Origin: a virus
DNA: 28,073 nucleotides
Reading direction: 5' to 3' (one strand)
Virus record (IMG/VR): IMGVR_UViG_3300042544_004043
Span: 1 to 28,073 of that record
The notes under the pieces were generated by a model. That model made no database searches, was not told where the DNA came from, and worked only from the letters and a program-made list of their open reading frames with translations. Positions within the stretch are counted from its first letter, which is position 1; each line of letters starts with the position of its first letter. Both the position numbers and the translations under genes were made by a program. This document shows, piece by piece, positions 89 through 28,073 of the stretch.

Positions 89-250
89 ATGAAAAAGATA
101 ACTAAAAAAACAATCGCTATGTCACTAGACAAAAATCTATCAGATTTGATAGACAAAAATATTACAAATAAATCAAAATATATCGAATGGTTGATATATC
201 AAGATTTGAAGAAAAAGGAAGTTCAAGGAACAGAAAAAATTATTATTTGA
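89..250 (+). CDS. Small ribbon-helix-helix-like protein (53 aa)
   Basis: This 53-residue protein has an Arc/CopG-like pattern: a short basic first strand (TKKTIAMSLDKNL), then two amphipathic helices (SDLIDKNI and KSKYIEWLIYQDL). The family binds DNA as dimers and usually represses transcription; that role is inferred here. It ends two bases before the ATG of the homing endonuclease at 253, so the two are probably co-transcribed and it may regulate the endonuclease. A TTTTAATATATA block at 72-83 lies just upstream and may be the promoter. The fold is judged from pattern only. Confidence 0.6.
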   Translation: MKKITKKTIAMSLDKNLSDLIDKNITNKSKYIEWLIYQDLKKKEVQGTEKIII

Positions 251-252
251 TT

Positions 253-1455
253 ATGAAATTTGAAATGAATTCTCGTAGCTTTGAATATCTTAATAATTTT
301 GAATTTATAGAGAAAAACGAAATTTTTGTTGATATTGACACTGAAAAAATAAAAATAAAAACAGACTCCTATATAAAAGTTTTCAGTGAATGTTCTTCTT
401 GTAAAGAAAACAAAAAAATAAAATATGCAGCTTATTTGACGAACATTAAAAAGAATGAAAAATTTGTTTGTAAGAGTTGTAATCAGAAAATTGTGAATTC
501 GAAAAGGAAGGGAATTAAATTTTTGAACTCGAAAAGAAAGGGTTATAAAATTATAAACAAAGAATTTAAAGTAGATTTTAAACAAATTGTAAAAGATAAA
601 TTTGGTTTGATTGCACTAAATGATGAATTAGTTAGATATGATGAAAATTTCGAGGCAAATTGCGAAAAACACGGAGTGTTAAAAATAAACTATAAAAATA
701 TTCAAAGAACTGGATGCACAAAGTGTAATCTCGATAATAAACAATCAACTCAACAAAAGAAATTTATTGAGAAATCAACAATAAAACATCTAGACAAATA
801 CTCATATGAAAAAGTAAAATACGTAAACAATAGAACAAAAGTCATAGTAATCTGTAAAAAACATGGTGAATTCAAAATAAGTCCAATGAATCACTTAAAT
901 GGTAACGGATGTGAATCATGTAGCAAATTAGACATCACAGATTTTATAGAAAGAAGTAAATTAGCACACGGTGATAAATATATTTACGATAAGTCAATTT
1001 ATATAAACGATATAACCAAGATAGAAATTATTTGCCCGACACATGGATCCTTTTTACAAAGACCTTCTTCCCACTTTTCTGGAAACGGTTGTCCGTCTTG
1101 TAGATGGTCACTTGGTGAAAAAAAAGTTTCTAGTTTTCTTGAAAAAAATTTAATAAGGTTTGAAACACAGAAAAGATTTCCGGAATGTAAGAATAAATTT
1201 CAATTAAAGTTTGATTTTTACCTGACAGATTTAAACATATTAATCGAATATGACGGAATTCAACACTTCATACCTGTTGATTATTTCGGAGGAGCAGAAG
1301 CTTTCGAATATCAAAAGAAGTTGAGAAAAATAAAGGAGAAATTTTGTGAAGAACAAAAAATAGAATTAGTCAAAATCTCATATTTAGATGATGTAAATGA
1401 AATCTTGACTAATTTACTTTTATCTCTATCCAAAAATACTCATAACAACGGATAA
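253..1455 (+). CDS. Homing endonuclease with zinc-ribbon repeats and PD-(D/E)xK-like nuclease domain
   Basis: The frame is open from 187, but ATG 253 (MKFEMNSRSFEYL) is preferred because it follows the stop of the small RHH gene by two bases. The first third carries CSSC and CKSC pairs. Two or three repeats of about 50 residues follow, of the phage type I-x-K-x-x-H-G-D-K-Y-x-Y ... C-x-x-H-G-x-F ... G-C-x-x-C (DUF723-like), which probably bind DNA. The last 90 residues form a nuclease domain with KFDFYL, LIEYDGIQHF and a following K/E-rich helix, matching a PD-(D/E)xK/Vsr-like active site. Such proteins cut intron-less or intein-less alleles to spread themselves. Its last 30 bases overlap the polymerase C-terminal gene tail-to-tail. 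Confidence 0.8.
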   Translation: MKFEMNSRSFEYLNNFEFIEKNEIFVDIDTEKIKIKTDSYIKVFSECSSCKENKKIKYAAYLTNIKKNEKFVCKSCNQKIVNSKRKGIKFLNSKRKGYKIINKEFKVDFKQIVKDKFGLIALNDELVRYDENFEANCEKHGVLKINYKNIQRTGCTKCNLDNKQSTQQKKFIEKSTIKHLDKYSYEKVKYVNNRTKVIVICKKHGEFKISPMNHLNGNGCESCSKLDITDFIERSKLAHGDKYIYDKSIYINDITKIEIICPTHGSFLQRPSSHFSGNGCPSCRWSLGEKKVSSFLEKNLIRFETQKRFPECKNKFQLKFDFYLTDLNILIEYDGIQHFIPVDYFGGAEAFEYQKKLRKIKEKFCEEQKIELVKISYLDDVNEILTNLLLSLSKNTHNNG

Positions 1456-2649
1456 CCTTTCTGTTATCTTCGGAAGACCCAACGGCTCAATAATTGAATT
1501 TATTGGAGATAAGATACATTTGGAAAATTGGAGGTCATTATCAATTTCCGGGCCGAATTCGTGAGGGAAAGAACCCCTCACATAGGCAAAAATATCACCA
1601 AGTGACTTATCTTTACAGTAGTAATATTTTATCTTTGTTCCAGACTTAATAAATTCATATTTAGACTGCAAATGCTTGTTTTTGTGAAGAAGGTAGTTAA
1701 AATGTCCAGCCGCTTTAACTGCGAAGTGACAACCCGTAACAAACTCCAATCTATCCTTATCATTCAACACCTTCTCCTCATAATTAGAACAGGATGACTG
1801 CATAGAAATATCATCAATCCTATCAGGAACACACAAATCAAACTCCTTCTTCAAATTCTTCACCAATTTCAACAACTCCTTAATGTTAAACGTGTCAGGA
1901 TGCTCAAACAAATATTTAACAATCCCAATAATCTTATCACGAGCAAATAATGGAGTAGAAGACCTAACCAACTCAACACCCTTAGGGAATAAATAAGTCA
2001 ATCTATCATAAGGAATACCATCCTCATAAACTATATGCTGAATATATTTCTTCTTAGCAATGTTAATAATAGACTCAGAAACTCTCTCTAACTCAAAATC
2101 CTGTTTGTTCTCAACACCATAAGATGCAGCCAAATCATCTAAACACTCCTTGAAATAATCAGCAAATCTGAACTTGTCTAGACCATGAATGAAATCTAAT
2201 TCTCTCTTCCAATTGTAAAAGATTTCTCCCTTAAAATCCTTTATAACCTTTTCTAAATTCCAATCTTTAATAAACTCACCATCAATCAATAAAAGTTCTG
2301 ACTTAGAAAGTGCATCCTTAATCTTACTTTCCGTTTCTTCATTTAACTTATCAACTAAAATTGCTGCCTGTAAATTAGAATTCTTAAATTTAGCCTTGAA
2401 CTTAGTTTTTGTTAAGATAGAAAAAGGTTTTTCAACTGAATTAAGATATTCAGAATTGAAGATTTGGTCTTGCCATTTACAAGATTTTATAGCAGGTTCA
2501 AATCCAACAAAAACAGAATTATGAACAAGCATATCATTTGCAATAAATGTATGTGTATCATCATTCATTTCTATATCATAAACCCACTCATCCTCGAATT
2601 CTCCGATTTGCTCACAAGATTCTATATCATCAAAAAAATACTCTTTCAT
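1426..2649 (-). CDS. Family B DNA polymerase C-terminal part preceded by a C-intein
   Basis: Residues 1-44 are the C-terminal half of a split intein, with block F (VYDIEMNDDTHTFIAND) and the terminal His-Asn (MLVHN). Residue 45 is Ser, the +1 nucleophile, followed by VFVGFEP, which continues the catalytic YGDTD motif of a replicative polymerase. The remaining 363 residues are the palm end and thumb: KKKY (199-202) and KGVELVRSSTP (223-233) are standard polB DNA-contact motifs. On its own the protein lacks two of the three polymerase motifs. After trans-splicing to the product of 4155-4899 it would complete the active site. It is preceded by a decayed gene whose final TGA overlaps this ATG. 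T4 gp43 is the functional counterpart. Confidence 0.9.
   Translation of the reverse strand: MKEYFFDDIESCEQIGEFEDEWVYDIEMNDDTHTFIANDMLVHNSVFVGFEPAIKSCKWQDQIFNSEYLNSVEKPFSILTKTKFKAKFKNSNLQAAILVDKLNEETESKIKDALSKSELLLIDGEFIKDWNLEKVIKDFKGEIFYNWKRELDFIHGLDKFRFADYFKECLDDLAASYGVENKQDFELERVSESIINIAKKKYIQHIVYEDGIPYDRLTYLFPKGVELVRSSTPLFARDKIIGIVKYLFEHPDTFNIKELLKLVKNLKKEFDLCVPDRIDDISMQSSCSNYEEKVLNDKDRLEFVTGCHFAVKAAGHFNYLLHKNKHLQSKYEFIKSGTKIKYYYCKDKSLGDIFAYVRGSFPHEFGPEIDNDLQFSKCILSPINSIIEPLGLPKITERLSVVMSIFG
2518..2649 (-). other. C-intein half (44 aa) of split polymerase intein
   Basis: Encodes residues 1-44 of the gene above. It has the block F/G signature ending LVHN and a Ser at +1. It pairs with the N-intein at 4155-4514, giving an intein of about 163 residues with no internal endonuclease domain. 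Confidence 0.85.
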
Positions 2650-2948
2650 AGATTAAAGTTTTTAACAAACATTATACATTCTTTACACGAATTGGTTTTA
2701 ATCGGAATGCGAATATAGTTTTCTTCATTCCAATTCACCAACTTAAAACATTATTTCATGGACAATTTGACACTGAATAGGATAAACAATTTATGGAATT
2801 ACAAACTTATAAAAATCATCATCTAAAAAACATTCTTTAGTTTTCCAATCATCAACTAAGAAGTCACATTTTTAAAAGAAAATGTTTAACCAAATTCTCT
2901 GAGTTGTATAGTCTGATTGAGTAGAGTTCCGTAGGTGAATATTTCCAT
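2646..2948 (-). pseudogene. Decayed gamma-glutamylcyclotransferase (AIG2)-like gene
   Basis: Three fragments in different frames line up in the order expected for a GGCT/AIG2-type protein. The first starts at ATG 2948 with MEIFTYGTLLN, the family's characteristic F-x-Y-G-T-L start, and stops after 20 codons. The second reads CDFLVDDWKTKECF then DDDFYKFVIP, like the W-K-x ... D-G-x-F-Y-P-x-x-x-P strand pair. The third reads NWNEENYIRIPIKTNS, like the C-terminal E-G-x-x-Y-x-R-I-x-V strand, and ends at the TGA overlapping the C-intein ATG. At least two frame changes and several stops separate them. This accounts for most of the 366-base gap between 2649 and 3016. The family call comes from motif recall only. 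Confidence 0.55.
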
Positions 2949-3015
2949 TGTTAAAAAAAATATTATTTTTAATTATTTTGTTTCAGGATTTTTTTCAAAA
3001 TGTATAAATATGAAT

Positions 3016-4131
3016 TTAAAGTTGCTTCAAGATCTTCTTAACTGTCAAATCTAAACCATCTTTCAAATAATCATTTTCCCAAACAATTATTAATTTACTC
3101 AACTTATCTCTCAAATATTCTACTTTAATCTTATCTCTCTTCCAAATAGTCTCAGCCATCATATTACCAGCAAAAGGCATAGGAGTCGAGTTAGATTCAT
3201 AAATGGATGGATTAGCATGCCATTTATCACCATTAAATTCAATACCTATATTCAAATCCTCAATCCAATAATCTAAATAATATTCAAAACTTCTATCTCC
3301 GATTTTTCTTAAAAATGACTTCTCGCCATTTTTGGTAGCATAATAAGTTCCGAACTTAGATAGATGTTTATCAAGTTCAATAAACAATTTCTGTGACATT
3401 TCTGAAAATCCACCTTTGAAAATTCTTTTATTGGAAAACTCATTGTATTTCTGAGAACCGATTTCCTCTCCATATTCCTCAATAAAGTATTCTAATGTAG
3501 TAGTATATCTCTGACGATCACAATAATTTAACCAAATTTCTAATCCCTTTTCCTCACCCCATCTACTAATCAAGTTTGGAAGTGTCACAGAACGACTTTT
3601 ATTATACTCATCAAATTGTTCTCTTGTCCAACCCCATTTATCTCTTTTAAACTCAAATGTGTTAGATATAGACTGCTTTTCACAGTAATTTTTCCACCTC
3701 TCTTTACCCTCAACTTCACCCCATTTCTCAATCAAAGTCTTTTCAGTAATTGAATAGTTTTGATTAATCCACTGAGAAGAAACATCTTCAGGAATTTCAA
3801 ATGCAAATTTCGTAGTTTCATTCATACCATTGAAGACCCTTGATTTATTCTTTGTTGCATAATCAGGAAATTTCTCTGTCAAACACTTCTCACAAATAGT
3901 TAGGTGATAATCTTTATCCAAAACAGTTTTTTTGATGTGATAAGACTTACCAATAGTTTCAAGTTCTTTAGTCTTTTTGGAAATCTTAAAAGAAGAATCA
4001 TAATAATAAATCACATCTTCACAGACTCTACAATGATGTTTTTCTGCAATAAAATTAGAATAAATCTCTCTATATAAATCGAGAGATTTATTCTTGTTAA
4101 ATTTTTCAATGAATTCTTTGTTTATAGTCAT
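3016..4131 (-). CDS. Vsr-like homing endonuclease lying between the split-intein halves
   Basis: This is a 371-residue protein. The N-terminal third has C-x-x-C pairs (CRVC, CEKC) that look like a zinc site. The middle repeats a W-G-E-x-x-G-x-x-x-W/Y-x-x-Y/F-x-x-x-x unit about three times (KWGEVEGKERWKNYCEKQ, RWGEEKGLEIWLNYCDRQ, EYGEEIGSQKYNEFSNKR), which probably contacts DNA. The C-terminal domain has YYLDYWI, IGIEFNGDKWHANP, a W-K-R-D-K-I-K helix and LIIVWENDY, matching the EDxHD/Vsr-like homing nucleases. It is on the same strand as both polymerase pieces, 23 bases after the N-intein gene. This is the arrangement described for fractured genes with split inteins, where a free-standing Vsr-like endonuclease mobilises the interruption. 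The target is presumably the intein-free D-T-D codons of the polymerase. Confidence 0.85.
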   Translation of the reverse strand: MTINKEFIEKFNKNKSLDLYREIYSNFIAEKHHCRVCEDVIYYYDSSFKISKKTKELETIGKSYHIKKTVLDKDYHLTICEKCLTEKFPDYATKNKSRVFNGMNETTKFAFEIPEDVSSQWINQNYSITEKTLIEKWGEVEGKERWKNYCEKQSISNTFEFKRDKWGWTREQFDEYNKSRSVTLPNLISRWGEEKGLEIWLNYCDRQRYTTTLEYFIEEYGEEIGSQKYNEFSNKRIFKGGFSEMSQKLFIELDKHLSKFGTYYATKNGEKSFLRKIGDRSFEYYLDYWIEDLNIGIEFNGDKWHANPSIYESNSTPMPFAGNMMAETIWKRDKIKVEYLRDKLSKLIIVWENDYLKDGLDLTVKKILKQL

Positions 4132-4154
4132 GATTTACGGTGATAGGTTTATCT

Positions 4155-4514
4155 CTATATATTATTTTCCAAACATAAAATTTTGTCAGTTTTTAAAATT
4201 TCCGATGGTTTAACTACCAATTTTTTACCATCACGGAAGACTACCATAGAATGATCACCAGTTACTATGATTTCTTTACCAGATTTGGTCTTCAACTTCC
4301 ACTTTGGTTTAGAAACTTTATGTCTAATAATTCTACGAACATCCGCATAGTAAAGTTGGTCGTTATCCCAATTAAGAACTCGATCATGTGTTAATACGGA
4401 TTCGTGACCGTTAGTGGTTTCACCAGCGGAACCATTCAACATATTGGAATTATAGAATTCTTCTATAGTTTTGATTCCAACACTCGTATGAATTAGTGTG
4501 TCTTTAAAAACGCT
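4155..4514 (-). other. N-intein half (119 aa) of split polymerase intein
   Basis: The intein begins with Ser directly after YGDTD (SVFKDTLIHTSVGIKTIEEF, block A) and has the block B motif VTGDHSMVV with the conserved T-x-x-H. It ends LCLENNI before a stop, where a contiguous intein would go on to its endonuclease or C-terminal part. Thermococcal polymerases also carry inteins starting with Ser at this D-T-D site. Cutting at Ser1 and rejoining at the +1 Ser of the C-half would restore YGDTDSVFVGF. Confidence 0.85.
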
Positions 4515-4899
4515 ATCCGTATCCCCATACACACTAACAGGTTGATTATCAGGTATTTGCACAACATCTGAAATCTTTAACTTATCATGAATCCACTTTT
4601 CAGTGTGCCACATCGTATACCAATATTTCTCATTCTTTTCTGACATTGTTCTTGTCAGATTTCTTCCTTCGGCTGTGATGGTTCCCGCTACATTTTGATT
4701 AAAAAGAATGAAGTAGGGGGTCGCAAATGCACCGTAACTTCCATTTAAAACTAATTTAAGAGCTTATTTACCCCCTCCAATTACTCAGAGGGGGTCATCG
4801 AGCAAGCTGAAGAGCGTTGAAGTATTCCACTTCTTTCTTCAGCTCATTTGCTTTCAATTTTAACTCTTCAATTCTTACTTGAATATCAGATTTGTTCAT
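4155..4899 (-). CDS. Family B DNA polymerase middle part ending in an N-intein; frame interrupted at 4764-4800
   Basis: From ATG 4899 a 34-codon frame encodes a charged helix ending NALQLAR and stops at TGA (4795-4797). In another frame, from GCT 4763, comes ALKLVLNGSYGAFA. This is polymerase motif B (K-x-x-x-N-S/G-x-Y-G). It runs on to the catalytic YGDTD and then the N-intein, stopping at 4155. There is no ATG, GTG or TTG between the break and motif B; the first ATG (4646) comes after it. Joining the first frame at GCT 4801-4803 to GCT 4761-4763 gives QLALKLVLNGSYG, the Q-x-A-L-K-L-x-x-N pattern of family B polymerases. Both pieces therefore look like one protein whose reading needs the 37-nt gap to be skipped. 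The exonuclease and N-terminal domains are not in this window. The start 4899 is the only plausible one after the divergent promoter region. Confidence 0.75.
4764..4800 (-). other. Bypass-like hairpin insert in the polymerase frame
   Basis: On the minus strand the 37 bases lie between two GCT (Ala) codons. They start CGA-TGA, then form a hairpin CCCCCTC / 10-nt loop / GAGGGGG (arms 4788-4794 and 4771-4777), then read TAAATAA. The insert is very GC-rich for this genome and has no U-run, unlike the terminators elsewhere in the window. GGAGG sits about 10 nt before the second GCT. Matching take-off and landing codons, an early stop, a stem-loop and an SD-like sequence before landing are all features of the T4 gene 60 bypass. 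Function is inferred. Confidence 0.55.
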
Positions 4900-4970: not shown

Positions 4971-6128
4971 ATGATTAAAGAAGAAAAAATTATAATCTCT
5001 ATTAATGCTCGAAACATTAGCCATTTCAGAGAACTCGGATACAATCTTTCTTTTAGTAATTTTACTGAAAAAATAAATTTAGAAGTTCCTATCGAACAAG
5101 TTTCTAAGTCATCAAAAGAAAGAATAACCGCTATCTGTGATATTTGTAGCTCTGAAACCAATTTAAGCATATCTAAATACTGGCGTAATTATGAAAGAGG
5201 TGGATATAACTTCTATTCTTGTTTTTCTTGTAAGAATAAAAAGAAAGAAATGACTAATATAGAAAAGTATGGTGTAGCATCATATTCAAATACGGAAGAG
5301 TTCAAAGAAAAATTCGAAAAATCTTGTCTTGAAAAATATGGTGTTAGCAATCCAAATAAATTGAGTTCACATAGAGATAAAATAAAAGAAACCTGTATGA
5401 AAAAATATGGTTATACACATGCTATGTTATCACCAGAGATAATAGAGTCGAATCGTGTTTGGATGTCTTCTGAAGAGTTTAAAACAAAATCTAAAGAAAC
5501 ATTAATGAATAAATATGGTGTTGATTCGTTTTCAAAAACTGATGATTTCAAGAAGATGATTTCAGATAATAAAGATAAAATCGTGGCAAAAATTAAGAAG
5601 ACATTTTTGGAAAAATATGGCGTTGAACACTTTTCACAATCCGAAATTTGGAAGAAGAAATTTATTGAAGGATTAGAACAGATGGAAAAGAAGAAAATTG
5701 AAACTTGTCTTGAAAAATATGGAGTTGATAATGTTTCAAAAGTTCCGGAAATTGTTGAAAAGGGATTGAGCACAAAAATTGAAAGGAATATTATAATAGA
5801 TCCGGAGTTAATTGAGCCTTGGGAAAAATATAAAAGAGAGGTCAGAAAATTCACCAAAAGAAATACAGCTAAACTCTATGAAAATTGGGATGGTGATGAT
5901 TTTTATGATGGAGAATTAATAAAAAAATATTTAGGTTTATCACATGTTCATAGATTTTATCCAACAATAGATCATAAAATTAGTGTATTTTATGGATTTC
6001 AAAATGGGATATCTTCCGAGGAAATAGGTTCTTTAGATAATTTATGTATTACTAAAAGATATTTGAATTCAATTAAAAGAACTTTAATTGATAGCGAGTT
6101 TATTGAGAAATTAAATTTAATGAATTAA
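4971..6128 (+). CDS. HNH-like homing endonuclease with repeated EKYGV modules
   Basis: This is a 385-residue protein. The N-terminus resembles the fragment at 20373-20786 (a start of the type I-x-I-x-x-x-N ... ELGYN, then CDIC and CFSCK zinc pairs). Six or seven modules follow of the form T-x-x-E-K-Y-G-V-x-x-x-S-x-x-x-E-F-K-x-K, about 30 residues each, a tandem DNA-binding array seen in many phage homing enzymes. The C-terminus has YPTIDHKIS ... GFQNGISSEEIGSLDNL ... LNSIK, which fits an HNH core (D-H near the start, then N-L). It diverges from the polymerase fragment starting at 4899, so it sits right at a point where the polymerase is split. No full HNH Cys knuckle is visible. Confidence 0.75.
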   Translation: MIKEEKIIISINARNISHFRELGYNLSFSNFTEKINLEVPIEQVSKSSKERITAICDICSSETNLSISKYWRNYERGGYNFYSCFSCKNKKKEMTNIEKYGVASYSNTEEFKEKFEKSCLEKYGVSNPNKLSSHRDKIKETCMKKYGYTHAMLSPEIIESNRVWMSSEEFKTKSKETLMNKYGVDSFSKTDDFKKMISDNKDKIVAKIKKTFLEKYGVEHFSQSEIWKKKFIEGLEQMEKKKIETCLEKYGVDNVSKVPEIVEKGLSTKIERNIIIDPELIEPWEKYKREVRKFTKRNTAKLYENWDGDDFYDGELIKKYLGLSHVHRFYPTIDHKISVFYGFQNGISSEEIGSLDNLCITKRYLNSIKRTLIDSEFIEKLNLMN

Positions 6129-6164: not shown

Positions 6165-6457
6165 ATGATAAAATCTTTCAGACAATTTTTAACAGACCCA
6201 TTAGAAACAAAGGTTGTTGATGAGTTTGGAAAACCACTTCTAATGTATCATGTAGGTTCCTATACAAGTGGTGAATTCCGGGGTGCTGGTTGGTTTACAT
6301 CTTCAAAAAAAGACGCTACTTATTATGCTAAATTGAACCGAATGTTGGTGTATTGATTGCACAGGATTTAGCTCGAGATGGTGTAATTGACTTACATCAA
6401 GGTAAAATAATAGATGCTGTTATATTTGATAATAAACAAATAATATTAGTGAAATGA
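6165..6457 (+). pseudogene. Broken ADP-ribosyltransferase-like gene with capsid-targeting-like start
   Basis: The first frame (63 codons, stop at 6354-6356) begins MIKSFRQFLTDPLE. It continues with VVDEFGKPLLMYHVGSY and GAGWFTSSKKDATYYAK, the V-V-D-x-x-G-x-P-L-x-x-Y-H ... F-T-x-x-x-x-x-A-x-x-Y-A pattern of ART-fold toxins and phage MuF-type C-terminal domains. A second frame, entered by a shift near 6333-6350, gives VGVLIAQDLARDGVIDLHQG ... VFDNKQIILVK, like the D-G-V-I ... I-F-D-x-x-Q-I end of the same fold. The middle is shorter than usual, so both a deletion and a one-base shift (possibly in the AAATT run) seem to have occurred. The final TGA overlaps the next ATG (ATGA). A sequencing error is possible. 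Confidence 0.55.
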
Positions 6458-7164
6458 AAAGAATTAAAACGTATAAACAGTTATTCGAAAGTGTATCCAT
6501 AGTAAAAGAATCCGAGAGTAAAAATATTTTCAGAGAATTTGGATTTGATTGGTTTATAATTGAAAATGAATTACCATCGAATCACACATATGTTTTTCTA
6601 CATCCAATAGGTGGTTATAGAACTATGGTTTTTGATTTTGGATTTGAGTTCACTGAACTTAGAGAAGAAGATAAATTTAGAGTTGAGTATTACTACAGAA
6701 AGGTGAGAGAATTAATTGAAAGATATAATTTATATGTTTTGAAGGAAATTAAAAATGATGATTCTTTCTACATAGAAGCGAGATTGGAAGGTGAAGAGAA
6801 TATCACAGACATAATTAAGAAATATTCAAAAATTTATCATGTTACACTTGAGAAATATCTTGATGGTATACTTACGAATGGATTGATACCTAACATATCG
6901 AGCCCTGATATGAATTATTCTTGGGAATATCCAAAAACACACTTTACAAACAATCCATTCAACGAAATGGAAAAAGATTTATTATTTGATTTTGTGATGA
7001 AACAAAAGGATAGAAATGATAAACCAGTTCTTTTAGAGATTGATATGAAAGGCTTGAATATTAATTTTTATCTAGATAAAGATGCTTGGCAATCGCCAGA
7101 AAATGATGTTTGGAATTTTTGGACAGATTCTAAAATAGAAAAGGAAAGAATTAAAATTAGATAA
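6454..7164 (+). CDS. Possible ART/Tpt1-fold protein with capsid-targeting-like N-terminus
   Basis: This 236-residue protein begins MKRIKTYKQLFES, close to the T4 capsid-targeting sequence MKTYQEFIAE, including a possible prohead-protease site (L-F-E then S). The C-terminal half reads KIYHVTLEKYLDGILTNGLI, then PKTHFTNNPFN, PVLLEIDMKGL, FYLDKDAWQ and IEKERIKIR. The H-V-T-x-x-x-x-L-x-x-I-L-x-x-G-L-x-P start and F-T-x-x strand recall Tpt1/KptA, DarT and related ADP-ribosyltransferase folds. It overlaps the broken ART-like gene by ATGA and the pair may be duplicated cargo. T4 Alt, an ART packaged in the head, is a precedent. The active site cannot be verified by eye, so the enzyme call is tentative. 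Confidence 0.45.
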   Translation: MKRIKTYKQLFESVSIVKESESKNIFREFGFDWFIIENELPSNHTYVFLHPIGGYRTMVFDFGFEFTELREEDKFRVEYYYRKVRELIERYNLYVLKEIKNDDSFYIEARLEGEENITDIIKKYSKIYHVTLEKYLDGILTNGLIPNISSPDMNYSWEYPKTHFTNNPFNEMEKDLLFDFVMKQKDRNDKPVLLEIDMKGLNINFYLDKDAWQSPENDVWNFWTDSKIEKERIKIR

Positions 7165-14824: not shown

Positions 14825-15157
14825 ATGCAAGAGAAAGAATTAAACTTACCAAAAATGTCACTCGAAGACGATGACTTTGATGATAAATTCAAAGGCCAGA
14901 AAAAACATGTTGATCCCAAATCAAAAACTCCAGTTTTAGACTCTTTTAGTAGAGACTTGACTAAGTTGGCTGAAGAAGGAAAAATAGATCCAATTATTGG
15001 CCGTGAAAAAGAAATCGAAAGAGTTTCACAGATTCTTTCAAGGAAAAAGAAGAGTAACGCTATTTTGATCGGTGAACCGGGATGTGTAGATGGTGATACC
15101 AAAATTAAAGTTAGAAAAATTAGTGATTTAGGAAGTCATAAAATTGTAGTACAATAA
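14825..15157 (+). CDS. ClpB/ClpC-like AAA+ ATPase N-terminal piece, ending inside an intein
   Basis: Residues 36-86 ([48 protein letters not shown]) match the start of the first AAA+ module of ClpB/ClpC, which normally continues V-G-K-T in the Walker A loop. Instead residue 87 is Cys, followed by [19 protein letters not shown], the block A start of an intein. The frame then stops after 24 intein residues. The usual Clp N-domain is absent and replaced by a 35-residue acidic leader. A terminator follows directly, so the piece is a self-contained unit. The rest of the intein and ATPase is not in this window. Either the gene is broken, or it is the N-half of an atypically split intein. Confidence 0.8.
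15083..15157 (+). other. Short N-intein (24 aa) at Walker A of the Clp-like ATPase
   Basis: Starts with Cys directly after GEPG and shows C-V-x-G-D-T-x-I-x-V, the block A consensus. Naturally split inteins with N-pieces of about 25 residues are known, for example AceL-TerL, so the size alone does not mean it is dead. Confidence 0.7.
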
Positions 15158-20372: not shown

Positions 20373-20786
20373 TTATCTACTTTTGTTTTTCAATTTTTTC
20401 TTAATTATTTCATCAGACCTTGAAGGATTATCAACACCCCAATTTTGTAATAAAGTGTTTTTCCATTTATCCTTTATCTGAGCACTCTGATAAGGATATT
20501 CGACTCCAAAATTTTGCTGTAAAGTCTCCTTTCTCTTCTTTTCTGCACATTTCCTACAATAATATTCTCCCCAACGATTACCATATTTAACATAATTCTT
20601 AAACATGACTTCTTTTATTATTTCACATCCATCACACTTACACTGTATCTTTATTTGACTACCATAAGATAAGAGATCAACAGGTATAATTATAGTCTCA
20701 CCACAATATACATCATAACCCAACTCCTCATAATAAGAAAGATTATAATCATTAATTTTAATTTCTATTTCTCTAGTTAGAATCAT
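20373..20786 (-). pseudogene. Truncated homing endonuclease, N-terminal modules only
   Basis: ATG 20786 starts MILTREIEIKIN, and an ELGYD stretch and CDGC/CRKC zinc pairs parallel the N-terminus of the intact HNH-like endonuclease at 4971. Two of the Q-N-W/F-G-V-x-x-P modules follow (QQNFGVEYPYQSAQIKDKWK, LQNWGVDNPSRSDEIIKKK), then a stop. There is no nuclease domain, so it is probably a remnant, though a small regulatory form is possible. Confidence 0.65.
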
Positions 20787-20808
20787 AAATTTTTTCACAT
20801 TTTATTTT

Positions 20809-20958
20809 TCATTTTTTACATAAATAAGCACCATCCGAATATCCATAAGATGTATATAATTTGAATTTCAATTTCTTTTCAATAGAACATTCATCACACC
20901 TAACTTCAATTTCAGCATTACTCCATTTACCGATTCCCTCAATATTTGATAATATCAT
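20809..20958 (-). pseudogene. Homing endonuclease zinc-domain remnant
   Basis: A 49-codon frame from ATG 20958 carries EVRCDECSIEKKLKFKLY and GAYLCKK, which parallels the zinc-ribbon part of the next fragment (IQCKCDGCEIIKEVMFKNY, GEYYCRKC), but stops mid-domain. It starts four bases after the stop of the intact endonuclease at 20963. It looks like the remains of a second inserted endonuclease. Confidence 0.5.
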
Positions 20959-20962
20959 ATGA

Positions 20963-22519
20963 TTACTTTTTAATTTCAAATAGATAAGAACCACAATCAT
21001 GTATTCTTCTCCAACCTAATTCGTGTAATATCTGAACTTCAGTTTTCTTCTTATCATAACCCATTTTTACAAGAATATCTTTTCTCCATTTCCAACGATT
21101 TTCTCTCAATCCTACATCTTTATGAAACCAATAATAGTTCGGTTCAGTCTCCTTTATTTTAGTAAATCCAACTTTTAAATAAGACCTACCATCATTAAAA
21201 GATTTATCACAATAGGATAATAATTTTTCAACTTCATAATTTGAAAGGAAAAAATTAATTAATTTTGATAAACCACCAACCACATTAGTATTTAATTTAT
21301 TGCAAAATCTAAGTAATTCCCATTGTCCTTCAGAAACATTTCTCCACCCAAGATTTCTTCTTAGTTTACCAAAAGTACAAATTGAAACCAATTCGTTGTT
21401 ATAATAAAGACCCAAATTAACCGAAGAAATACAATTACCTTGTATATGATTTTCGTTAAGAAATTTAGTCGTATCATTCTTATTCACAACAGAAATTTTA
21501 CATTTTCTTGCTCCAATATTATTTTTATTTAAGCCTAACTTATTAATTATTCTACTTTTGATAATATCGGTTTTGTTCTTCCAATCATCTTCCCAAATAT
21601 TCAAAATCTTAACACCGTTTTCTTCAAAAAACTTTAATTTATCTTTATGATATGAATTTTCTTTATAAACTTCAGAATGCCACCATAATCCATTACATTC
21701 AACCCCAACATTTAACTCAGGTAAAAAAATATCCAATTCGTATTTTTTATAACCTCTATAGTTATTAACTATTCTACCATTATATACTGTTTGAATCCAT
21801 TCTTGAACCCTTTGTTCGAAATTAGATTGACCAACTGGATTACAAATTAAACAAATATCGTTCTGAAATCTTTTTCTACTATTAAACAAGGTTCTTCTTA
21901 TCTTAAAATCATTAGAACACTTTAAACAATTTAATTCAAACTCAAAATTTGTAAGTCCTAAAAGCTTGAATCCAGATTCTTCCAATCTCTCTAGAACTTT
22001 TCTATTTCTCACTTCTGGTAGAGAATTTCTTAGTCCTATTGATATTTTCTCTTTTATTTGATCACATTGACTGATGTTCTTCACACCCCATTTCTCAATA
22101 TTGAAATTCTGTCTTTTTGTATTAATTTCACTTTTTCTTTCTTCTGAAAATTCGGATTTGGTTTTATTAGCTTTTTCCGTCATTTCCTTTCTCAATTCCG
22201 GATCCTTATTCGATTTTTCGAAACCAGATAATCTTTTTGATTTAACTTCAGGATTTTGTGCAGTCATTGTAGCCGCACATTTTTTAGAACAATATTTAGT
22301 ATAACCTTTGTAGAATTTGAGAAAATTAGTTTTATTCTCTTTACAATACTGACACTTTGGCTTTTCACTTAAATTATTTTGATATAAGTAAATTCTTTCA
22401 GAAAGTGAAATATTTTCTTCTTTAACAAAAACAAAAAGATTATCATAATATTCCTTATGATTTTCTCTTAGAAATTTATCCGAAACACCATTAGTAGTTT
22501 TAAAAAACAAATCGTCCAT
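20963..22519 (-). CDS. Vsr-type homing endonuclease with GNAT-like C-terminal region
   Basis: ATG 22519 (MDDLFFKTTNGVSDKFL) is chosen because the frame further upstream is AT-rich, hydrophobic and unlike the family. The product has 518 residues. There is an N-terminal zinc region (KCQYCKENK ... YCSKKC), then a module FNIEKWGVKNISQCDQIKEK, and a second Cys pair set (CLKC ... CLIC). The nuclease domain reads ELDIFLPELNVGVECNGLWW with HSE following, then KDKLKFFEENGVKILNIWED: the E/D-x-H-D Vsr-like active site. The C-terminal 180 residues (LNENHIQGNCISSVNLGLYY ... WELLRFCNKL) resemble a GNAT-like domain and end GWRRIHDCGSYLFEI. It lies between the head-completion and protease genes. Confidence 0.8.
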   Translation of the reverse strand: MDDLFFKTTNGVSDKFLRENHKEYYDNLFVFVKEENISLSERIYLYQNNLSEKPKCQYCKENKTNFLKFYKGYTKYCSKKCAATMTAQNPEVKSKRLSGFEKSNKDPELRKEMTEKANKTKSEFSEERKSEINTKRQNFNIEKWGVKNISQCDQIKEKISIGLRNSLPEVRNRKVLERLEESGFKLLGLTNFEFELNCLKCSNDFKIRRTLFNSRKRFQNDICLICNPVGQSNFEQRVQEWIQTVYNGRIVNNYRGYKKYELDIFLPELNVGVECNGLWWHSEVYKENSYHKDKLKFFEENGVKILNIWEDDWKNKTDIIKSRIINKLGLNKNNIGARKCKISVVNKNDTTKFLNENHIQGNCISSVNLGLYYNNELVSICTFGKLRRNLGWRNVSEGQWELLRFCNKLNTNVVGGLSKLINFFLSNYEVEKLLSYCDKSFNDGRSYLKVGFTKIKETEPNYYWFHKDVGLRENRWKWRKDILVKMGYDKKKTEVQILHELGWRRIHDCGSYLFEIKK

Positions 22520-22626
22520 AATATAATATATATTTATATTGTAAATAAAGTTTCTATAAAAAATCCACCTTGAAAAAAATTGTTTTTTTAGCGATATATA
22601 TACAATTATAAAAATAACTATTTTAA

Positions 22627-24798
22627 ATGAAACCAATTTTAATCGTTGAAAACAACACAAATCCTTTGAAGGAGAACGTTAAGATTTCTGGTGGTAAAAA
22701 AGAATATGTTTTAGGTGGTGTTTTCACTGAGTTCGGAATTAAAAATCGGAACGAGCGTATATACACAGCTGACAAATTTATTCCTTGTTTAAAGGAATTA
22801 AATGAACGTATCCAAACAATGGGTGTAGTTTATGGTGAGTTCGATCATCCCGATGTGTTCGACACCTCATTATCAAGAGCTTCCCACATTATCAGAAAAG
22901 CATTTTACGTTAAAGAGGGTAACCGAGTTGATGGTGAAATTAAACTTCTTAATACTTACTGGGGAAAAGAAGCTCAATCACTAGTGAATGATGGTTGTCC
23001 TGTTTTTGTTTCTTCAAGAGCAGCTGGTGTCACTGAATCTGACGGTACTGTTACACTTAAAAAACTTTTCACATACGATATTGTTGCTGATCCTGGATTC
23101 GCTTCTGCAAGAATGCAGTCAATTAATGAATCTGTTGGATATTCTAACAAAACTAACTTTAGGATATATGAAATGTCCGACGAGTCAAAAATTAACGAAT
23201 TATTTAACATGAACAAAAATGATTACGTTACTAAGAAGCAATTGGCTGACTATTCCAAGTATTTGGTGAATGAAATCGCAACTACTAAACAGGCAGCACA
23301 AACAGCTATCAAAAAAGGTAACCTCACTCCAAGAAAATTGGAACAACTCCTTGAGTACTACGAAGAACTCAACAAAACCAACTCTCAAATGGTTAAATAT
23401 TTAGACTATTTAGCTGAGAAAGTACAAGTTGTTGTTAACGAAAACAAAAGCTTGAAATCTACTACAAAAAAACTTATTTCTCACAACGATTACTTAGCTG
23501 AAAATCTTGAGAAAGCAGTTAACTACACTGAGTATGTAGCTGAAAATTTGGACAAGAATATCACTTATTCTGAATATCTCGCTGAGAACTTAGATAAGAA
23601 CATTTCTTACTCTGAATATCTTGCTGAAAACTTAGATAAAAACATCGCTTATTCTGAGTATATCGCTGAAACTGTTGATAAGAACATTTCTTATTCTGAA
23701 TACATCGCTGAAAACTTAGACAAGAATATCGCTTATTCTGAGTATATCGCTGAAAACTTAGACAAGAATATCGCTTACTCTGAATACATCGCTGAAAATT
23801 TAGATAAGAATATTGCTTACTCTGAATATATCGCTGAAAATTTAGATAAGAACATTGCTTATTCTGAATATATCGCTGAGCACTTAGACAGTTCAATTGC
23901 ATACTCTGAGTATCTTGCTGAACATGTTGAAGGTAATATCGCTTATGCTGAATACATCGCTGAACATCTTGATGATAACATCGCTTATTCTGAATATCTT
24001 GCAGAAAATCTTGACAAAACAGTTTCTTATGCTGGTATGATCACAGAAAAATTGAATGGTGGTAGAATCAACGAAAACTTCGCTGATCAGTTCCCAACTT
24101 TAGATGCTGCTGGTTTTGAAGAAGTTGCTGAAGAAGAAAAACATAACACTTTTGCTCAAGAAAAAGAAGAAGATGAATACTATATGATGTCAAATCCTCA
24201 TAGTGCTCAATCTTATAATGAAATTGAACCTAATGAAGAAGAAGAAAATAATACATGGGAAATGGGAGAAACAGAAATGAAAACCGATTCTCAATTATCT
24301 GAACAAATTAATATTTTGATACAAGAAGCTAGAAAACGTAAAGTTTCTGAAACCAATGATTTGCACTTCTTGAAGTTTTTGAACAAATCTCAAGTTGATA
24401 GTTTTTACAACTTGACTAAAGCTGAACAAGAACAAGTTAAACTTTATCTAAACGAAAAAAGTTACTTCTCATCTGCTGAAGTTTTAAGACTTATCCAAGA
24501 ATCATTATCAAACAAAGGAGAATCTTTAGAAGAAAAATTAATTAGACTTATGCCTGAAAACGTAAAGCCAATTTGGTCTAAATTAAACGAATCTAACAAG
24601 AGATCAATCCTTTCTCAAGCTAGACTTTATCCGGAACTAACAAACGAAGCAAAAATTGAACACTTCTGGTTAACAAGACAGTTGAAAAAAAATGAATCTA
24701 CTACAAAAAATTTAGTTGATTCGAATCCAATCATTCAAGAGGAAAAAATTTCTGGAAATGAAATGAAATTGATTCTTGAAAGATTTAAAAATCTATAA
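22627..24798 (+). CDS. Prohead protease fused to a repeat scaffold (T4 gp21-gp22 like)
   Basis: Residues 1-170 are a serine protease of the T4 gp21 kind: GVFTEFGIKNRNERIY, the His motif VVYGEFDHPDV (H74), the Ser motif FVSSRAAG (S129/S130) and DIVADPGF. T4 makes the scaffold as separate gp22; here a 550-residue helical region follows in the same frame. It contains 13 repeats of 14 residues (type YSEYIAENLDKNIA), then an acidic stretch (from about 495) and a second helical region to the end. It would form the prohead core around which the capsid protein assembles and then cut it away. The I/L-A-E before N in each repeat matches the I/L-x-E cleavage preference of T4 gp21. It lies 95 bases before the capsid gene. 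Confidence 0.85.
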   Translation: MKPILIVENNTNPLKENVKISGGKKEYVLGGVFTEFGIKNRNERIYTADKFIPCLKELNERIQTMGVVYGEFDHPDVFDTSLSRASHIIRKAFYVKEGNRVDGEIKLLNTYWGKEAQSLVNDGCPVFVSSRAAGVTESDGTVTLKKLFTYDIVADPGFASARMQSINESVGYSNKTNFRIYEMSDESKINELFNMNKNDYVTKKQLADYSKYLVNEIATTKQAAQTAIKKGNLTPRKLEQLLEYYEELNKTNSQMVKYLDYLAEKVQVVVNENKSLKSTTKKLISHNDYLAENLEKAVNYTEYVAENLDKNITYSEYLAENLDKNISYSEYLAENLDKNIAYSEYIAETVDKNISYSEYIAENLDKNIAYSEYIAENLDKNIAYSEYIAENLDKNIAYSEYIAENLDKNIAYSEYIAEHLDSSIAYSEYLAEHVEGNIAYAEYIAEHLDDNIAYSEYLAENLDKTVSYAGMITEKLNGGRINENFADQFPTLDAAGFEEVAEEEKHNTFAQEKEEDEYYMMSNPHSAQSYNEIEPNEEEENNTWEMGETEMKTDSQLSEQINILIQEARKRKVSETNDLHFLKFLNKSQVDSFYNLTKAEQEQVKLYLNEKSYFSSAEVLRLIQESLSNKGESLEEKLIRLMPENVKPIWSKLNESNKRSILSQARLYPELTNEAKIEHFWLTRQLKKNESTTKNLVDSNPIIQEEKISGNEMKLILERFKNL
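23479..24024 (+). repeat. 13 tandem 42-bp repeats coding for 14-residue scaffold units
   Basis: Units start every 42 bases at 23479, 23521, 23563 and so on to 23983. Positions 1 and 13 are more diverged; the middle units are nearly identical in protein but differ at many third codon positions. This means that selection acts on the peptide rather than recent DNA slippage being the only cause. The partial unit at 24025 begins SYAGMITEKLN. Confidence 0.9.
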
Positions 24799-26758: not shown

Positions 26759-28073
26759 ATGAGTAAGTTAGAAAAAATTGATGAAATTTTACAGGATAAA
26801 GGTAATAGATTAAGAGAGTCATATTTCAATAAAAATTATCCTGATATATTAGAAGATATAAAATCTTTCTGTATTAACTTAACAGACTTACCTTTCAACC
26901 AAAAACTTTGGCATTGGGTCAATGATTATCAAAATAATTTTACCTGTAAGTGTGGAAATACAACAACTTTCAATAAAAATTGGAAAGACGGATATAGGAA
27001 ATATTGTTCGGCTAAATGTTCAGCAACCGATCTATCAACTAAAGAAAAAAGAAAAAATACAAACTTAGAAAAGTGGGGAGTTGATAATGTAGCAAAAGCA
27101 GAACAAGTCAAAAATAAACAAACAGAAACCAATCTACAAAGATATGGAACGAAATCTTCTGCACAAAATGAAGAAGTAAAGAAAAAATATAATGAAACTA
27201 TACAGAAAAAATATGGTGTAGATAATTATTTCGAATCAGATGATTTTAAAGAAAAAGCAAAAGACACACTACTAAAAAAATACGGTAAGGAACATTTCAC
27301 TCAAACTGAAGAATATATTCAACTTGTAAAGCAACATAATTTAGAAAAGTATAATACAGAATGGTTTACTCAGACAGAAGAATATAAGGAAAAGTCAAAG
27401 AAAACCAATTTAGAAAACTGGGGAGTTGGAAGTTATTTACAAACACCCGAACTTAGAAATATACTTAAAGATAATAAATTAGAAATATTTGAAAAAATTA
27501 GAAAAACATCTTTAGAAAAATGGGGTGTTGATTCTCACAGCAAAACTGAAGATTTCCGAAATAAAATAAAAGAAAAATGGAAAAGTGGAGTCTATTCAGA
27601 TATTATTTCCAAATCAATAGAGACTAACAAACTTTTATATGGATTTGATTGGTTTACACAGACAGAAGAATATAGAAAATATCTAAAATCCGATGAGTTT
27701 AGAGATAAAATTAAATATTCTTTGATCGACAAATCAAGTGAATATTATAAAAATATAGGATATGATTTATTAGATACTGAAGATGGAATAGTCACACTAA
27801 AAGGTGGTTGTGGTCACACATTTTCTATCACAATTTATAACGCCAGTAGAAGAAATTTAAATGGATTAATTCTATGTACAGAATGTAATCCTATCAATTT
27901 GAGTCAATCTGGCAGTGAAATAAATCTTGCAAATTGGTTAAAAGAGTATATAAATTTAGAGACAAAAAATAGAAGTCAAATACCACCACTTGAATTAGAT
28001 ATTTATATTCCTGATAAAAAAGTTGCCTTAGAATATAATGTTTTATATTTGCATTCTGAAATTTATAAATACA
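26759..28073 (+). CDS. Vsr-type homing endonuclease, cut by window end
   Basis: ATG 26759 (MSKLEKIDEILQDKGNRL) opens a frame that runs to the last base. The first part has CKCG and YCSAKCS zinc pairs. There are then about eight modules of the type T-N-L-E-K-W-G-V-D-N-x-x-x-x-x-x-x-K, interleaved with GFDWFTQTEEY-like units, a middle zinc pair (GGCGHTF ... CTEC), and the start of a nuclease domain (LELDIYIPDKKVALEYN, then HSE). It matches the enzyme at 20963 in its nuclease motif and the one at 4971 in its repeats. It directly follows the capsid terminator. The C-terminus lies outside the window. Confidence 0.8.
   Translation, partial: MSKLEKIDEILQDKGNRLRESYFNKNYPDILEDIKSFCINLTDLPFNQKLWHWVNDYQNNFTCKCGNTTTFNKNWKDGYRKYCSAKCSATDLSTKEKRKNTNLEKWGVDNVAKAEQVKNKQTETNLQRYGTKSSAQNEEVKKKYNETIQKKYGVDNYFESDDFKEKAKDTLLKKYGKEHFTQTEEYIQLVKQHNLEKYNTEWFTQTEEYKEKSKKTNLENWGVGSYLQTPELRNILKDNKLEIFEKIRKTSLEKWGVDSHSKTEDFRNKIKEKWKSGVYSDIISKSIETNKLLYGFDWFTQTEEYRKYLKSDEFRDKIKYSLIDKSSEYYKNIGYDLLDTEDGIVTLKGGCGHTFSITIYNASRRNLNGLILCTECNPINLSQSGSEINLANWLKEYINLETKNRSQIPPLELDIYIPDKKVALEYNVLYLHSEIYKY

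Follow-up and report, generated by a model that had tools for sequence, protein, structure and literature searches.

Introduction

In phage T4 the topoisomerase gene is split by an HNH endonuclease gene (mobA), and a gap of 50 nt, located 46 codons into the downstream part (gene 60), is skipped by the ribosomes. The signals described for this bypass are a stop codon after the take-off codon, a stem-loop and a Shine-Dalgarno (SD)-like GAG located six nt before the matched landing codon (PMC3014915, PMC5009743). The bypass in gene 60 was described as apparently having no counterpart in other T4-related phages, and the question of further cases was raised in a review (PMC3014915). One candidate, in Streptomyces phage Hau3, is unconfirmed (PMC5009743), and ribosome bypass in phages has previously been confirmed in one gene only. 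Here we describe the DNA polymerase gene gp43B of IMG/VR virus record IMGVR_UViG_3300042544_004043, a linear fragment which was analyzed over its full 28,073 bases (the window). Two selfish systems within this gene explain its structure best: a split intein at motif C, and an HNH gene together with a hairpin insert beside motif B.

Polymerase genes of related phages are known to carry inteins and introns. For the split PolB1 intein of Aeromonas phage Aes123 trans-splicing has been published, with an efficiency of ~30% for the native fragments (PMC11923092), and its crystal structure is available (9HTH, PMC13014065). Inteins that use serine as residue 1 (Ser1) carry a specific histidine in the NX motif (PMC10189870). 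The intron 25.g43B belongs to group I and reportedly depends for its mobility on a homing endonuclease that is free-standing (PMC2993671). A first-pass annotation of the window had recognized the split intein. It had missed the division of the polymerase into 43A and 43B as well as the second interruption near motif B, consisting of a 40-nt hairpin insert and an HNH endonuclease gene.

A 40-nt hairpin insert interrupts gp43B

On the minus strand, positions 4899 to 1426 encode the C-terminal half of a polymerase of family B. Genes for a T4-type portal, a prohead protease and a major capsid protein are also present in the window, and the polymerase is best explained as the gp43B half of a T4-type replicative DNA polymerase from a phage related to huge phages. 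An exonuclease domain of the polymerase was not found in the 28-kb window. In relatives (loci and genomes are given as L and G numbers) gp43A, which holds the exonuclease and motif A (DFASLYPT), comprises 500–520 aa and is coded apart from gp43B. The spacing amounts to tens to hundreds of kb in several genomes (gp43A at 233 kb vs gp43B at 131 kb in LR745206; in G003 at 17 and 108 kb, respectively). Non-covalent assembly of gp43A and gp43B would be expected.

The start of the gene had been placed at 4646 in the first-pass annotation. Upstream of 4646 the frame runs on through motif B (LKLVLNGSYGAF) up to a stop just ahead of it, and the 5’ end of the gene, MNKSDIQVRIEELKLKANELKKEVEYFNALQLA, sits 40 nt farther upstream in a different frame. 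Coding extends via motif B and the insert to 4899, where it starts, and is broken after codon 33 by 40 nt containing stop codons and a hairpin, ~250 nt upstream of the intein. In L022, L023 and 16 other relatives the leader and the motif-B part form one open frame. The interrupted region comprises the following parts:

4801–4899, minus strand: actual 5’ end of gp43B with 33 codons, matching the uninterrupted gp43B start of intact relatives.
4801–4803, minus strand: proposed take-off codon GCT (Ala), the last codon before divergence and identical to the landing codon.
4764–4800, minus strand: non-coding gap consisting of CGA TGA, a 10-bp hairpin, an SD-like G-run and a spacer; seen as an insert against 18 intact relatives, with covariation in 21 aligned distinct stems.
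4771–4794, minus strand: hairpin CCCCCTCTGA-GTAA-TTGGAGGGGG, paired at 10 of 10 positions and supported by covariation in the family.
4761–4763, minus strand: proposed landing codon GCT, followed by CTT AAA TTA; landing here restores LQLALKLVLNGSYG exactly.

The in-frame stop is the second codon past the take-off codon (CGA TGA), and the SD-like GGAGGGGG is located seven nt ahead of the landing GCT. We propose that ribosomes would decode 33 codons and then come to a stall at the hairpin, where GCT would be released. After sliding over ~40 nt they would pair again with the second GCT, with the SD-like G-run as an aid. Decoding would resume after the second GCT and yield an uninterrupted polymerase. 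By analogy with mobA and gene 60 of T4, insert and HNH gene together probably represent a mobile cassette of homing endonuclease and ribosome bypass in the replicative polymerase. A second intein or a group I intron at this break was rejected, with no match in Rfam and no intein-like sequence. A group I catalytic core was not found in the 40-nt insert either.

Alternatively, the 33-codon leader could end at the stop and form an extra piece of the polymerase, with the remainder being re-initiated past the hairpin via the G-run. The polymerase already tolerates the split into 43A and 43B, and the stop followed by a G-rich SD-like run 4–8 nt ahead of the resumed frame would suit such an arrangement. 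However, there is no ATG, GTG or TTG ahead of motif B in the window and in many relatives, and the resumed frame would have to begin at CTA, GCT, GTT, TCA or AAC. We therefore consider re-initiation quite improbable.

A family of inserts around motif B

Inserts were called by one-gap codon alignment over ~105 loci. We found 28 distinct inserts of 36–48 nt, whose lengths distribute over the three frames as 8/12/8. All but one (27/28) contain a stop in the upstream frame. Six codons around motif B serve as insertion sites: Ala and Leu in LQLAL, Val, Gly, Ser, and the Tyr of NGSY. Counted from the first base of the codon proposed for take-off, the stem starts after 8–9 nt in every measured insert and at all six sites; this geometry covers all inserts except the last few, for which there are folds only. 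The distance from the stem to the landing codon is 4–8 nt, with 10 and 13 nt in two inserts. Take-off and landing codons pair up as Leu CTT/CTG with CTA, Ala GCT with GCT/GCA, Val GTT with GTT, Gly GGT with GGT and Ser TCT with TCA.

The base of the stem is mostly C5...G5, and the upper pairs covary freely. Among the 21 aligned distinct stems 96.7% of the positions are paired. The covariation score reaches 0.671 in comparison to 0.164 ± 0.030 for shuffled stems (0/500 shuffles as high) and lies far over the slid controls. When all viral contigs were scanned for the exact pattern, 14 matches were returned; six are located in gp43B and the other eight are without a visible resumed coding frame.

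All inserts come from metagenomic contigs, a fact which could point to an artefact of assembly or sequencing. Against this, the same inserts recur in contigs of separate metagenomes (e.g. L041-L043), the stems show compensatory changes and the geometry is phase-locked, so that an artefact is hardly conceivable.

Across the insert, dN/dS-like ratios in carriers were 0.26 and 0.18, and intact genes gave 0.29 and 0.12, with synonymous sites near saturation. In carriers, the protein segments before and after the insert are both under purifying selection. This selection speaks against gene decay, i.e. an inactivation of gp43B by insert and split while another polymerase replicates the phage. The 366-nt non-coding gap ahead of the C-intein would be in line with decay, and a contig of 28 kb leaves room for an intact copy elsewhere. 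Yet every catalytic residue of the intein is retained, and no second PolB is found in complete relatives that carry the split. Decay of the gene is very unlikely.

Linkage to a divergent HNH gene

The second component of the proposed cassette is located next to the 5’ end of gp43B:

4971–6128, plus strand: HNH-type homing endonuclease gene with DUF7487 repeats and a C-terminal HNH (PHROG homing endonuclease 3.7e-20; Pfam DUF7487 5.8e-28).

It is divergent from gp43B and lies 72 nt upstream of it. The motif DHK...NLCITK..NS.K is invariant in 15 homologues. The best fold match of its product is an HNH nicking endonuclease, although this match is weak (prob 0.84, E 0.54). PDB sequence searches with this protein and with the nuclease of the intein described below gave nothing useful.

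Within the same clade we compared loci with and without insert. A divergent HNH-type gene homologous to 4971–6128 and within ~90 nt of gp43B was present in 20 insert-bearing loci and absent from 12, in comparison to 0/18 intact loci (Fisher p 8e-6). When near-copies were collapsed the figures were 17/12 vs 0/18 (p 2e-5). No HNH gene occurs next to an intact site within the clade, in line with what a model of target protection expects: the insert would break the target of the HNH enzyme and so protect its carrier. HNH homologues located away from gp43B had no such hairpin alongside.

When the tree is built from the downstream protein, the insert and HNH states are scattered like shuffled labels, with at least 11 changes forced. 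In independent pairs on this tree insert and HNH gene change together ~6 times and oppositely 0 times (median p 0.03). Closely related pairs can differ in their state. L051, carrying neither insert nor HNH gene, and L053, carrying both, share 96–99% identity downstream and 85% in the leader, in contrast to 41% upstream, where they are unrelated. For L061 and L055 the identities are 97–100% downstream, 72% in the leader and 36% upstream. L059 and L061 are identical in their downstream proteins and differ in insert type, and the closest pair, L055/L059, shows one common conversion tract. Near-identical polymerases differing in their cassette are the pattern that would be expected of homing with gene conversion.

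Several observations weigh against a bypass cassette. The link to the HNH gene is not absolute, considering the 12 inserts without it, and L068-L070 carry a divergent GIY-YIG gene upstream of an intact gp43B free of inserts. In T4 the stem contains the take-off codon, whereas the stem in gp43B begins downstream of it. In 400 kb of G009 a C-rich hairpin interrupting an open reading frame (ORF) was found in gp43B only, and on this basis we also rejected the insert as a genome-wide repeat. Finally, the eight Tyr-type inserts (after NGSY) would land on AAC, AGC, GAC, CAA or TAA and on no Tyr codon. Since these landing triplets are non-cognate, matched re-pairing is not general. Minimal pairing can reportedly suffice in T4 bypassing (Herr 2004, by its title as cited in PMC3014915); despite this we count the Tyr-type mismatch as unexplained. 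As a separate observation, L009 carries a homologue of the GIY-YIG gene of L068-L070 beside an insert-bearing gp43B.

The Tyr-type inserts bear on another explanation, in which the 40 nt are excised from the mRNA, either in the manner of a minimal intron or through hairpin cleavage and ligation, and ribosomes never meet the insert. Removal of RNA would not need matched codons, and Aes508 carries an annotated group I intron (L234:5394-6363) at nearly the same motif-B position as the hairpin inserts. On the other side, 40 nt is far under the size of any self-splicing intron and there is no match in Rfam. The hairpin is locked to the codon phase at six of six sites, and the codons proposed for take-off and landing match in every type but Tyr. 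Excision from the RNA is thus unlikely, and ribosome bypass is the reading that we prefer. Extending it to the relatives, we find it fairly likely that a widespread group related to huge phages carries a family of mobile endonuclease and bypass cassettes in its polymerase genes. These would constitute a second, recurrent case of bypassing in phages, this time affecting an essential gene and offering dozens of naturally occurring variants in take-off codon, hairpin and landing site, and in the window a single polymerase chain would need both a hop and trans-splicing.

A split intein at motif C

Farther downstream gp43B is interrupted again, and the following elements are found:

4515–4760, minus strand: gp43B N-extein from motif B (NGSYGAF) to YGDTD (motif C); Pfam DNA_pol_B, 73% identity to L003 and L093.
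4155–4514, minus strand: N-intein, 119 aa (4514-4158), beginning with Ser1, stop included; Pfam 4.8e-11, closest solved structure 9HTH, catalytic residues aligned.
3016–4131, minus strand: free-standing EDxHD/Vsr-like endonuclease ORF, 371 aa; conserved D287, E298, D302, H305, NP, W330, D333 and WE.
2518–2649, minus strand: C-intein, 44 aa, ending in HN before Ser+1; Pfam 8.5e-4, 53–83% identity in relatives.
1426–2517, minus strand: gp43B C-extein, 363 aa (2517-1429), beginning with SVFVGF, stop included; PHROG DNA polymerase 9e-31, 83% identity to L003.

These coordinates and the Pfam matches (both to Intein_splicing) agree with the first-pass annotation, which had placed intein halves ending at 4155 and starting at 2649 around a free-standing endonuclease. 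Polymerase sequence is read from 4757 to 4515 up to YGDTD, and joining it to the C-extein restores YGDTDSVFVGF as had been claimed. The claim of a polymerase fractured at its catalytic motif is likewise borne out by matches of both exteins to Pfam DNA_pol_B and by relatives with an empty site. In these, up to 79% identical, the N-extein continues directly into the C-extein.

In a phmmer search of the PDB the joined intein matched 9HTH at E 6.8e-17. Ser1, Asp-1 and Ser+1 are all kept (junctions YGDTD|SVFKD and VHN|SVF). The NX-motif histidine is present, with RIIRH of the window aligned to YIMKH of Aes123, and so are the TxxH of block N3 as VTGDH (TxDH) and the C-terminal His-Asn as LVHN. The intein is not strictly cysteine-less: one non-catalytic Cys is located near the end of the N-intein and one in the C-intein, the catalytic positions being free of Cys. 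Despite these two residues, its motifs predict that it works like the Ser1 inteins of the Aes123 PolB1 type. The N- and C-fragments would be made apart and then joined by trans-splicing, as shown for the homologue Aes123.

Both junctions begin with Ser-Val-Phe, which had been interpreted as a possible footprint of the insertion. We abandoned this direct repeat as a footprint. The two copies use different codons (AGC vs TCT), and in relatives, which show SCH/SLF, SCF/SLF and SIQ/SCY, conservation is limited to the two nucleophilic serines. SVF at both junctions appears to reflect constraint and chance. That replication depends on trans-splicing, another proposal of the initial reading, we grade as plausible, because the complete genomes of Tenacibaculum phage PTm1 and of Lak-C1, which have the same split, contain a single family-B polymerase and no second one.

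Across IMG/VR relatives the YGDTD^S site occurs in three states: empty (e.g. L003), with a contiguous mini-intein, or split with an EDxHD ORF. Contiguous mini-inteins free of a nuclease were found in L093 (halves 77%/73% identical), L083-L085 and L112. The split intein is present in ~12 more distinct loci, mostly with the EDxHD/Vsr-like type of nuclease. N-half, free-standing nuclease ORF and C-half follow each other in one orientation in L005, L006, L015, L026, L027, L090, L108, L111 and L115, and Lak-C1 contains the same split-intein parts as the window.

For the 371-aa ORF Foldseek returned Vsr (1vsr, prob 0.90, but E 0.21), and its homologue is annotated as VSR endonuclease in PTm1 and Aes509. 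It may act as the homing endonuclease that spreads the split intein. The slot between the intein halves holds a DUF7487 homing endonuclease in L024 (7305-9008) and a treble-clef/REase protein in L104 (4715-5776) in place of the EDxHD ORF, both families being assigned by resemblance to proteins of the window. Because unrelated nucleases occupy one slot, the split intein resembles a docking site at which homing endonucleases are interchangeable. Ahead of the C-intein there is a gap of 366 nt (2650-3015, minus strand), in comparison to ~10–40 nt in close relatives. It contains apparent ORF remnants (MEIFTYGTLLNQT...), perhaps gamma-glutamylcyclotransferase-like as judged by eye only.

Other features of the window

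A homing-endonuclease-like gene at 187-1455 (plus strand) overlaps the 3’ end of gp43B tail-to-tail by 30 nt, and further genes of this kind are located at 20373-22660 (minus) and 26759-28072 (plus). At 14825-15157 (plus) a Clp/Hsp100 ATPase fragment is broken at Walker A and followed by a stop and a terminator-like hairpin. The break resembles an atypically split intein with an N-part of ~24 aa. It also occurs in L236 (91%) and L248, and intein-free relatives read LIGEPGVGKS; the partner half was not found in the window. A small ORF at 6165-6458 (plus) shows an apparent frameshift (...YYAKLN / EPNVGVLIAQDLARDG...), due to a sequencing error or to recoding. At 22627-24798 (plus) a prohead protease is fused to a long run of a repeated 14-residue unit (AYSEYIAENLDKNI).

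Comparison with known systems

The motif-B insert with its HNH endonuclease is more novel than the split intein. Our literature search, whose reach excluded most subscription journals, found no paper on bypassing in gp43. If our interpretation is true, the inserts provide a natural comparative set of at least 28 bypass elements. Such a set would combine covariation of the RNA, different take-off codons, a linked nuclease and gain and loss of the cassette on near-identical backgrounds. The rules of ribosome hopping, and the protection of homing cassettes from self-cleavage by bypass inserts, would become testable. The intein part adds a family of Ser1 split inteins with contiguous versions at the same site, of use for protein engineers and not new in kind.

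The fractured arrangement had been described as known mainly from metagenomes. This does not hold, since the cultured phages Aes123, Aes508 and PTm1/PTm5 carry it and trans-splicing in Aes123 is published (PMC11923092). The Aes123 annotation (Aeromonas phage loci JN377899, JN377894) lists gp43A, gp43B1 with N-intein, a putative VSR endonuclease and gp43B2 with C-intein. In Aes508 a GIY-YIG gene additionally separates 43A from 43B, and 43B1 contains an annotated group I intron. In PTm1/PTm5 the genes are annotated as 'intein-containing split DNA polymerase precursor', 'VSR endonuclease' and 'DNA polymerase'. The window shares with Aes123 PolB1 the gene, the DTD^S site, Asp-1, Ser1 and Ser+1, the site of the split, which is the endonuclease position (halves of 119+44 aa vs 120+39 aa), the Vsr-like ORF between the halves and a separate gp43A. 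In contrast to Aes123, the N-intein is only ~36% identical, the nuclease ORF has an extra N-terminal Cys-rich region, gp43A is non-adjacent in the relatives of the window and each intein half contains one non-catalytic Cys. The split intein of the window is a new member of the already known Aes123 PolB1 type.

A 40-nt insert near motif B further distinguishes the window from Aes123 and from Aes508, which carries its group I intron there. Both that intron and 25.g43B are inserted, like our inserts, at motif-B codons of gp43B. The Aes508 intron is estimated at ~290 nt and annotated as group I, whereas the insert of the window is a single hairpin of 40 nt.

The programmed bypassing elements (byps) of Magnusiomyces capitatus mitochondria are comparable in being many short skipped inserts in essential genes, with take-off and landing codons that are not always matched. 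They are spread over many genes of one mitochondrial genome, whereas the inserts described here affect a single gene across many phages and are linked to a homing endonuclease (PMC5009743 for the byps).

From T4 gene 60 the gp43B inserts differ in the interrupted gene (DNA polymerase vs topoisomerase), in the length of the gap (36–48 nt vs 50) and in their many take-off codons. Unlike mobA, the HNH gene at gp43B is divergent and mostly intact, and the proposed cassette is widespread and recurrent. The likeness to T4 consists in a host gene in two parts with an HNH gene upstream of the downstream fragment, a gap 33–42 codons into gp43B (46 in T4), a stop after the take-off codon, a stem-loop, a usually matched landing codon and an SD-like run before the landing site.

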